From assembly GCA_902570425.1 (NCBI GenBank), contig CACFYB010000001.1, positions 124,001 to 188,000 of the forward strand: DNA of 64,000 bases, read 5' to 3'. Made by a program: the position numbers and the translations under genes. The notes beneath the pieces were generated by a model. It worked only from the letters and a program-made list of their open reading frames with translations, had not been told where the DNA came from and searched no databases. Numbering within the stretch: position 1 is the stretch's first letter; each line of letters begins with the position of its first letter. Below are positions 51,992-54,614 of the stretch, piece after piece. This DNA is from an uncultured Pelagibacteraceae bacterium (lineage in GTDB: Bacteria > Pseudomonadota > Alphaproteobacteria > Pelagibacterales > Pelagibacteraceae).

Positions 51992-52438
51992 TTATTTGAT
52001 CTCAATAAGCCTTTTCTTTTTGTGATCAGGTAAAATTCTTTCACAATCAATTGTTAAAAGACCATCTTTCAACTCTGCACCATTAACCTTTACATCATCT
52101 GCAATAGTAAACGATCTAGCAAATTGTCTTTGTGAAATACCTTTATGTAAAATTTTACCATCTTCACTCTTTTCCTCTGATTTATTAACTTGTTTAGTTC
52201 TTACAGTTAATAAATTATCCTCAAACTCAACTTCAACATCTTTTTTATTAAAACCAGCTAGAGCAACCTCTATTGAATAGTTGTCTTTTCCAGTCTTTCT
52301 AATATTGTAGGGTGGGTAATTTGACTGCATTGTCAAATTTCCATTTCCCAACATACTTTCAAATTGATCAAACATATCATCAAAACCAATTGAGAAAGGT
52401 CTTAGAGAGTTGAATATAGATAAATCCTTACTTGTCAT
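51992..52438 (-). CDS. ibpA: small heat shock protein Hsp20 (IbpA type)
   Basis: An ATP-independent holdase of 148 residues that binds unfolding proteins. It starts LRPFSIGFDDMFDQFESML, then YPPYNIRKTGKDNYSIEVALAGF, and has the alpha-crystallin core motif LTVRTKQVNK and the GISQRQFARSF block typical of IbpA/HspA proteins of Proteobacteria; a C-terminal I-x-I-like element is RLIEIK. Expression should be heat-controlled twice: by an RpoH-type promoter and by a ROSE-like hairpin over its ribosome site. Confidence 0.94.
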   Translation of the reverse strand: MTSKDLSIFNSLRPFSIGFDDMFDQFESMLGNGNLTMQSNYPPYNIRKTGKDNYSIEVALAGFNKKDVEVEFEDNLLTVRTKQVNKSEEKSEDGKILHKGISQRQFARSFTIADDVKVNGAELKDGLLTIDCERILPDHKKKRLIEIK

Positions 52439-52444
52439 ACATAT

Positions 52445-52461
52445 CCTCCTTTTAAAGCAAG
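52445..52461 (-). promoter_or_regulatory. ROSE-like RNA thermometer hairpin over the hsp20 ribosome site
   Basis: On the minus strand CTTGCTT pairs with AAGGAGG: C-G, U-G, U-A, G-G mismatch, C-G, U-A, U-A, with the loop UAA. The strand opposite the Shine-Dalgarno AGGAGG contains UUGCU, the hallmark U(U/C)GCU of ROSE elements, including the characteristic G-G opposition. The ATG follows 6 bases after the hairpin. Family knowledge (ROSE elements before small heat shock genes in Proteobacteria) supports the call; no folding was computed. Confidence 0.7.
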
Positions 52462-52470
52462 TTATTTTAT

Positions 52471-52493
52471 ATAAGCCCCAATAGGCGACTTAT
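52471..52493 (-). promoter_or_regulatory. 5' hairpin of the hsp20 leader
   Basis: ATAAGTCGCC and GGGGCTTAT form a 9-bp stem with one bulged G and the loop TATT. It lies right after the predicted transcription start and before the thermometer hairpin. ROSE leaders normally contain one or more such constant hairpins 5' of the temperature-sensing one. Confidence 0.6.
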
Positions 52494-52500
52494 AAACTTT

Positions 52501-52528
52501 ATGTAGTAATTAAATTTTAATTTTCAAG
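52501..52528 (-). promoter_or_regulatory. RpoH (sigma32)-type promoter of hsp20
   Basis: On the minus strand CTTGAAA (52528-52522) is a perfect heat-shock -35 element, followed after 15 bp by CTACATAAA (from 52506), which resembles the CCCCATNT -10 element (the CAT core is kept). The spacing is in the accepted range. Transcription would start near 52493, exactly where the leader hairpin begins. The element lies in the gap behind the oligopeptidase gene. Confidence 0.7.
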
Positions 52529-52538
52529 TCTTGTATGC

Positions 52539-54614
52539 TTATATTTTTTTAGAGATTTTCAAAATAAATGCGTAATCGAGAGCAATTTCTTCTATTGCCC
52601 CATCTCTACCAGATTTTCCACCATGACCCGCATTCATTTCCGTTTTCAATAAAAGAAGATTATTATCAGTTTTATAATCCCGGAGTTTTGCAGTAAATTT
52701 TGCAGGTTCGTCAAACAAGACTCTGTTATCACTTAAGCTCGTGGTAATTAACATATGTGGGTAGTCCATTTTTTTTATATTGTTGTATGGTGCGTAAGAA
52801 AAAATATAATCAAAATGTTTTTTATTCTCTTTTGCGTTGCCAAATTCATCAAATTCGCCAATCGTCAATGGAAGTGAGTGATCTAAATTTGTAGTCAAAG
52901 AGTCTACGAAAGGCACTGCCATCACAATACCAAGGAATAATTCTGGCGCTTCATTAATAACCGCACCCATTAGTAATCCTCCCGCAGAACCTCCCATGCC
53001 AATTATTTTTTGTTTAGATGTAAATTGATTTTTAATTAAAAAATTTGCCACGGCAATATAATCTTTAAAAGTGTTTTTTTTATTTAATAACTTTCCTTCT
53101 TTCCACCATCTCATTCCTCTTTCCATCCCACCCCTTATGTGTGCTGTTACCCAAATAATATCTCTATTAATCAAACTAAGTCTAGTTGAGGAAAAATCTG
53201 GAGACATAGAACTTCCATAAGATCCATAACCATAAAGAAGCAAATTTGCAGATCCATCGAGTTTAGTATTTTTATGCCTGGTTATTGTAATTGGAATAGA
53301 TTTCCCATCATGTGAATTACATTGCAATCTATCAACTATATAATCTTCAGGATTATGACCTGATGGAATTTCTTGGTTTTTAACTAATTTTTTTTCTTTA
53401 GTTTTTAAATTATATAAATAAATTTTGCCTGGAGTTTTCGGTGATGAGTAAGATAAATATACAAAATCTGTATTTCTATCTCTTTGTTTCAATGATATTC
53501 CTGGTACTATTACTTTTTCATCTGAGAATATTAACTCTTGCTCTAAATTGGTTTTTTTATTTCTCACGAATAATTTATCTAAAGCATTTGATTTTTCTCC
53601 TCTAATAATCCAGTTTTCTAAAAATATTAATCCTCCAATTAGAACTCCATCTTTAGCTGCAATATAAGGTTCCCAATTTTGTTTGTCTAAATTAGAACAT
53701 CTGTCAATTTTGAAATCTTCAGCATCCTCATTTGTATGACAATAGAAATAATTTTGCCATGATGAAACAGAGTAAATTACTCCTTTTTTTCTTTTTTTGA
53801 TTAGTTTTGGTTTTGGTTTGTTCTCATTTACTGCAAAATAATATTGTTCAGACGTATTATGATCAGATGTTGTAATAAAAAAATATTTCTCGTCTGCACT
53901 TAATCCTATTCCAACTGTAAATGCTTCGCTTTTTTCCTCAAAAATTAATTCATCATTTTTACAAGAAGTTCCAATTTTGTGTCTATAAATTTTTCTAGGT
54001 CTATGAAATTCATCAAGTTGAGAGTAGAATATATATTTATCATCTAAACTAAAAGTTACACCTCCGTTAGTGTCTTTAATTCTTTCTGAGATTAATTTTC
54101 CTGATTGTATATCTCTTAAATAAATAGTGTAGTATTCAGAACCTTTTAAGTCTAAAGAGTATCCTAAATATCTATCGTTATAACTTATTTCCAAATCTCC
54201 AACACCAAAATATTCTGTTTTTAACTTTGCTTTTTCTTTATCCCCATTCCATATCTCTTCAATTTCTTTATGACCAATCTTTTTTCTTAATTTAATTGAG
54301 TAATTTCCTTCAGTTGTTGTTTTAGTCCAATACTCGTATTTTTTATCTTTAAATGGCAAAGACTCATCATCTAATTTAATTCTTCCTTTAATTTCCTGAA
54401 ATAGTTTTTTTTGGCATTCTTTCGTATCCTTCAAATTGTAATCTGTATAATCATTTTCTTCCTCAAGATATTTTTTAATTTCAGGAAGTAATTTTGAACT
54501 ATCTTTTAATACATCAAGAATATTTTCTTGGTGAATCCAACTATAATTATCTTCCCAAGTAACATTGTGACAAGTTTTTATTTCTGGTTTTTTTCTAAGT
54601 TGTGGTATTTTCAT
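52539..54614 (-). CDS. ptrB: oligopeptidase B / prolyl oligopeptidase family (S9A)
   Basis: A cytoplasmic serine peptidase of 691 residues that cuts short peptides, probably after basic residues. The N-terminal beta-propeller starts with the family lead-in HNVTWEDNYSWIHQEN; the catalytic alpha/beta hydrolase domain has AHIRGGMERGMRWW, the nucleophile in GMGGSAGGLLMGAV, Asp in SDNRVLFDEPAKF and His in NAGHGGKSGRDG. Its start codon is only 13 bp from the divergent J-domain gene, so the promoters of the two must overlap coding sequence. Confidence 0.92.
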   Translation of the reverse strand: MKIPQLRKKPEIKTCHNVTWEDNYSWIHQENILDVLKDSSKLLPEIKKYLEEENDYTDYNLKDTKECQKKLFQEIKGRIKLDDESLPFKDKKYEYWTKTTTEGNYSIKLRKKIGHKEIEEIWNGDKEKAKLKTEYFGVGDLEISYNDRYLGYSLDLKGSEYYTIYLRDIQSGKLISERIKDTNGGVTFSLDDKYIFYSQLDEFHRPRKIYRHKIGTSCKNDELIFEEKSEAFTVGIGLSADEKYFFITTSDHNTSEQYYFAVNENKPKPKLIKKRKKGVIYSVSSWQNYFYCHTNEDAEDFKIDRCSNLDKQNWEPYIAAKDGVLIGGLIFLENWIIRGEKSNALDKLFVRNKKTNLEQELIFSDEKVIVPGISLKQRDRNTDFVYLSYSSPKTPGKIYLYNLKTKEKKLVKNQEIPSGHNPEDYIVDRLQCNSHDGKSIPITITRHKNTKLDGSANLLLYGYGSYGSSMSPDFSSTRLSLINRDIIWVTAHIRGGMERGMRWWKEGKLLNKKNTFKDYIAVANFLIKNQFTSKQKIIGMGGSAGGLLMGAVINEAPELFLGIVMAVPFVDSLTTNLDHSLPLTIGEFDEFGNAKENKKHFDYIFSYAPYNNIKKMDYPHMLITTSLSDNRVLFDEPAKFTAKLRDYKTDNNLLLLKTEMNAGHGGKSGRDGAIEEIALDYAFILKISKKI

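Follow-up and report, generated by a model that had tools for sequence, protein, structure and literature searches.

How does a SAR11 bacterium, one of the commonest marine cells and a carrier of very few regulators, control its small heat-shock gene hsp20? A preliminary description of a window of 64,000 nucleotides from an uncultured Pelagibacteraceae bacterium (contig CACFYB010000001.1, positions 124,001 to 188,000) had proposed that this gene is preceded by a sigma32 promoter, a constant hairpin and a ROSE-like thermometer, so that both transcription and translation would respond to heat. Here, we collected Pelagibacteraceae hsp20 loci, both from genome contigs and from whole genomes (188 distinct leaders), and compared them with one another and with known thermometers. 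The window belongs to a 0.92-Mb assembly that is 80.5% complete. Every proposed part is present in the minus-strand sequence before hsp20 (Table 1), which places the element, like other ROSE elements, in the 5' leader of a small heat-shock gene. On the basis of the comparisons below, it is highly probable that this leader acts as an RNA thermometer of the ROSE type, downstream of a sigma32 promoter.

Table 1. Features of the hsp20 locus in the window and leaders of other heat-shock genes with a similar element
Feature	Position	Strand	Remarks
hsp20 (small heat-shock protein, 148 aa)	51992..52438	-	Pfam HSP20 PF00011, E 5e-18
Codons 2-4, ACA-AGT-AAG	52427..52435	-	Nucleotide sequence frozen; AAGUAAG (52433-52427) is a possible pairing partner of CUUGCUU (52461-52455)
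Shine-Dalgarno AGGAGG	52445..52450	-	Opposite the ROSE box, G52458 against G52448; in register with the ROSE_3 alignment
ROSE box CUUGCU	52456..52461	-	
Hairpin I, 10 bp	52470..52494	-	TATAAGTCGCCTATTGGGGCTTATA; bulged G at 52486, loop UAUU
-10 region	52499..52508	-	TACTACATAA; weak CAT-containing match to CCCCATNT
-35 element CTTGAAA, sigma32-type promoter	52522..52528	-	Perfect match
Prolyl-oligopeptidase-like gene	52539..54614	-	3' end about 10 bases upstream of the hsp20 -35 element
dnaK leaders L247, L327, L329, L330, L250, L254, L261	about 60 bases before ATG		Bulged-G hairpin I and UUGCY box
rpoH leaders L246, L326, L328, L332	about 60 bases before ATG		Bulged-G hairpin I and UUGCY box

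The sigma32-type promoter

The -35 element was found exactly as first described. TTGAA is retained in 180 of the 188 distinct leaders, and the exact CTTGAAA was observed in 118 of 185. A CAT-containing -10 had also been reported; the CAT is there, but the -10 of the window copy is weak, whether it is read as TACTACAT with a 13-nt spacer or as CTACATAA with a spacer of 15. The consensus is strong in relatives, where the -10 reads YCCATATA. Of 178 scored leaders, 163 have a spacer of 13 and 174 a promoter score of at least 10 (5/185 in shuffled sequences). Thus, the arrangement expected of a sigma32 promoter (CTTGAAA, 13-15 nt and a CCCCATNT-like -10) can be recognized in the window and across the family. 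In 141 leaders, 13 nt separate the end of the -10 from the YGCC of hairpin I, and transcription should therefore start at the foot of this hairpin. A prolyl-oligopeptidase-like gene lies immediately upstream on the same strand. It is possible that transcription running from this gene into hsp20 would skip the promoter, not the thermometer.

RpoH was identified above the cut-off in 92 of 98 Pelagibacteraceae genomes, which makes sigma32 control plausible. No RpoH over the cut-off was found in the 80.5% complete assembly of the window itself, probably due to an assembly gap. When the strict promoter pattern was looked for in the first 800 kb of a complete SAR11 genome, it preceded no more than three genes, namely hsp20, groES and a third one. 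The groES copy (minus-strand offset 706123) reads CTTGAAA-N13-ATCTATAT and lies 57 bases before the ATG, and this sigma32-type promoter suggests a small SAR11 sigma32 regulon.

Hairpin I is supported by covariation

A 9-bp hairpin had been noted at the expected start point. The hairpin was recovered, not as a plain 9-bp stem but as 10 pairs with a diagnostic bulged G, which is present in all 184 leaders aligned on sequence motifs only. Eight of the nine modelled pairs vary on both sides and yet stay paired, with 98.7% of cells paired, so that a stable hairpin stands 5' of the putative sensing hairpin, as in ROSE elements. Two-sided changes amounted to 47 compared with 8.9 in shuffled alignments (0/500 shuffles reached this count), and all covariation was located in hairpin I. 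When the stated structure was placed on a MAFFT alignment (A2), 97.6% of cells were paired, and this pairing collapsed once the partner strand was slid. RNAalifold alone also recovered hairpin I at 37 °C. Folding software predicted it in 0.8-0.9 of the ensemble across sampled leaders, and gave the window leader a long-range fold up to 30 °C.

A bulged G followed by CC also occurs in hairpin I of the Rfam ROSE and ROSE_3 consensus and of E. coli ibpA (GC-G-CC-UGAU-GG). Since this odd detail is not forced by pairing with the Shine-Dalgarno (SD) sequence, it argues for homology with ROSE.

Hairpin II and its invariant ROSE box

The proposed UUGCU arm opposite AGGAGG, with a G-G opposition, was seen in the window. 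Loss of this arm in relatives would have spoken against a thermometer; U(U/C)GCU was kept in 186 of the 188 distinct leaders, and the two leaders without it are distant paralogues or have mis-set starts (33-38% identity). GGAG is retained in 187/188, and the G-G opposition between box and SD, a mark of ROSE, occurs in 185/185 leaders on the motif-only alignment. Both box and opposition stay the same in every SAR11 genus sampled. Since the core of hairpin II does not vary, it offers no covariation, and this hairpin is backed by conservation and homology. It was not predicted by RNAalifold at 37 °C.

Comparison with known ROSE elements

At gathering scores, no match to Rfam was obtained over the whole window. 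When the leader alone was searched against 4227 Rfam families, the best match was ROSE_3 (22.5 bits, E 0.007; cut-off 43) and the second was ROSE (17.7 bits; cut-off 45), both spanning the two hairpins in register. Among 20 relatives, 4/5 Rfam matches with E up to 1 (4227 families searched) were to ROSE families. Every SAR11 leader tested falls short of the gathering score (relatives reach at most 27.3 against 43), and by this measure, which is a cut-off set by curators and not a structural definition, the leader is not a member. It should be noted that the ROSE_3 model found almost no matches in 192 Alphaproteobacteria, so the low scores are partly a limit of the model. ROSE_3 as a search model was useless, both in the genome of the window and in these 192 Alphaproteobacteria, compared with a model trained on SAR11.

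Such a covariance model, trained on 42 leaders with that of the window excluded, scored the latter at 59.6 bits (E 3e-12 in the 0.92-Mb genome of the window), whereas the next-best match had 18.9 bits. When 134 well-assembled genomes of the order were searched with this model, the element was detected in 117. All strong matches were in one family, and the other family of the order had no match to the leader model in this search. Weak matches in the genome of the window and in other SAR11 genomes were considered to be chance: they are located within genes or upstream of unrelated ones, such as those for a substrate-binding protein and ATP synthase subunit c, and have no bulged-G hairpin. The element was not found in SAR11 rpoH leaders.

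The validated ibpA elements of Pseudomonas have two hairpins and sigma32 promoters (PMC3669281). They share with the SAR11 leader a stable 5' hairpin I, U(U/C)GCU opposite the SD in hairpin II, a start codon outside the structure, a sigma32 promoter and a small heat-shock gene. They differ in that hairpin II of Pseudomonas is G-C-clamped on both sides, whereas that of SAR11 is flanked by A/U and has no more than one lower C-G; the frozen codons 2-4 described below also belong to SAR11. The ROSE_3 family (RF02523) has its hairpins in the same register, with the bulged G in hairpin I and the box opposite the SD, and the SAR11 leader departs from it by a much lower G+C content and a sub-cut-off score. 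The ROSE family (RF00435, rhizobial hspA type) shares a hairpin I of the form CC-UUAU-GG with the bulged G, as well as UUGCU opposite GGAGG, although rhizobia have three to four hairpins and SAR11 two. Finally, ibpA of E. coli (NC_000913.3) has the same kind of hairpin I, a UCGCU box, a heat-shock promoter and a small heat-shock gene, and differs by an extra middle hairpin.

A structured-RNA survey of SAR11 published in 2009 mentions neither hsp20 nor heat shock (PMC2704228). A later screen of SAR11 strain HIMB5 reported a 'possible RNA thermometer' in a relatively GC-rich intergenic region (Stav et al. 2019, PMC6429828); its main text names no gene and draws no link to ROSE, and its motifs are described as confined to SAR11. 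This candidate may be the same hsp20 leader. Thus, the SAR11 leader, which may have been noticed once before, would join an established kind of element. What is new here is that it is recognized as ROSE and followed across the family, together with the frozen codons and the leaders of dnaK and rpoH.

Temperature behaviour and possible mechanism

The sequences themselves show a conserved promoter and two conserved hairpins, the first of which covaries, and the following course of events may be proposed. RpoH-holoenzyme would begin transcription approximately at the foot of hairpin I, and the stable bulged-G hairpin would be the first to fold and would then persist. The invariant U(U/C)GCU box would then pair with the SD through a short helix with the G-G opposition, and this helix is expected to block ribosomes at normal sea temperature. 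Warming would melt it, so that Hsp20 could be translated.

Structure prediction is of limited use in judging the last step. In ViennaRNA calculations on transcripts ending at the AUG, SD exposure rose slowly from 0.18 at 15 °C to 0.26 at 42 °C, and the E. coli ibpA control rose from 0.17 to 0.33, with no sharp predicted melting. Since a validated thermometer behaves in an equally shallow manner, nearest-neighbour folding neither backs nor refutes melting. Leaving melting aside, the initial reading as a ROSE-like thermometer with sigma32 control is upheld by the conservation of box, SD and promoter, the covariation of hairpin I and the register shared with ROSE.

Two other readings of the leader were considered. 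The little melting predicted, together with the concentration of covariation in hairpin I, would also agree with a static structure, in which hairpin I shields the mRNA at its 5' end, the box keeps basal translation low and heat induction comes from sigma32 only; hairpin I of Pseudomonas is heat-stable and has been proposed to protect the mRNA (PMC3669281). However, the SD-facing box with its G-G opposition is invariant in the SAR11 genera sampled and is seen again before dnaK and rpoH in other bacteria. Tested thermometers bear this signature (PMC3669281), and we consider a static structure improbable. Alternatively, the leader might bind a protein or a small RNA and not sense temperature directly. 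The sequence of hairpin I, and not its pairing alone, is indeed conserved (the bulged G and the CC-UNAU-GG loop region), but the E. coli ibpA element, which is a thermometer, has the same loop and bulge, and we have no candidate binding partner. This makes such binding very improbable, and a ROSE-type thermometer remains the preferred reading.

Codons 2-4 are frozen and can pair with the box

Analysis of 159 distinct coding sequences starting with MTSK or close variants revealed that codons 2-4 hardly vary: ACA was used in 158/159, AGT in 156/156 Ser codons and AAG in 155/156 Lys codons. In the remaining body of hsp20, which is near synonymous saturation, the use of these three codons is 0.43, 0.11 and 0.22, respectively, and among the early Lys codons of a complete SAR11 genome AAG likewise makes up 0.12. 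At codon 6, CTA is used in 0.82 of the sequences compared with a background of 0.09.

Pairing of these codons with hairpin I was rejected as the cause of the freeze, since the codons stay fixed while hairpin I changes: of 152 of these sequences, 91 have no CUUAC in the 3' arm of the hairpin. The available partner is the invariant box, with which AAGUAAG(G) forms a helix of 7 bp including one G-U. When the coding region was included in the calculations, the box was predicted to pair with codons 2-4 as often as, or more often than, with the SD; the codon helix was predicted to be the more stable one by 3-4 kcal/mol at 10-25 °C and about 2-2.5 kcal/mol at 37-42 °C.

These observations would fit a switch in most SAR11, in which the box pairs exclusively with either the SD (the closed state, formed first during transcription) or codons 2-4, and temperature shifts the balance. 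Such a switch would account for a freeze that goes against codon use in an otherwise saturated gene, for a partner that is the box, for the predicted stability of the codon helix and for the preservation of all 7 bp in two forms, A-CUUGCU-U or C-CUUGCU-A. However, the two flank types are clade markers, and thus not independent events, and covariation is impossible with an invariant box. Moreover, the complement is absent from other SAR11 genera (whose proteins start with MN or MK) and from the other alphaproteobacterial hsp20 genes seen, and folding predicts no temperature switch between the two box states. We therefore regard the two-state switch as conceivable but doubtful; judged from sequence, codons 2-4 may serve a second state or may be held by some other constraint.

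ROSE-like leaders of dnaK and rpoH in other Alphaproteobacteria

A model built from SAR11 hsp20 leaders only matched the leaders of hsp20, dnaK and rpoH in other Alphaproteobacteria, and a general hsp20-leader model gave likewise matches to all three. In a search of 386 Alphaproteobacteria with the hsp20-leader model, the element was found outside SAR11 in 13 hsp20 leaders, 7 dnaK leaders and 4 rpoH leaders, each from a different genome for the gene concerned. Among the inspected matches outside SAR11, which are the stronger ones of those listed, few were located elsewhere than in these leaders. RpoH was identified by NF005143 in all four cases (in three also above the TIGR02392 cut-off) and DnaK by NF001413. 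The elements recur within families: the dnaK element was present in three sampled genomes of one family (f51), the rpoH element in two of another (f21), and both hsp20 and dnaK elements in two of a third (f123). The scores are modest here (24-35 bits). In hairpin I of the non-SAR11 leaders and a few other matches, two-sided changes numbered 51 compared with 15.7 in shuffled alignments, a count that leans towards structure because the alignment was fitted to the model.

In a 2014 review, ROSE was tied to small heat-shock genes only. Our results suggest, with fair likelihood, that ROSE is a general heat-shock thermometer module of Alphaproteobacteria, which in some lineages stands before dnaK and before rpoH itself. 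The more inclusive reading, namely that ROSE is such a general module, that SAR11 kept the hsp20 copy only and that its box gained a second partner in the first codons to give a two-state switch, is unlikely to hold as a whole.

Significance for SAR11 and related bacteria

Whole lineages escape the ROSE models of Rfam, and in other Alphaproteobacteria a ROSE module may govern dnaK and the heat-shock sigma factor. For SAR11, the element allows one to test whether the opening temperature of a natural thermometer tracks the temperature of the habitat. Its two-layer heat control has hardly changed within the family, which suggests that controlling protein quality by temperature pays for the bases it occupies.
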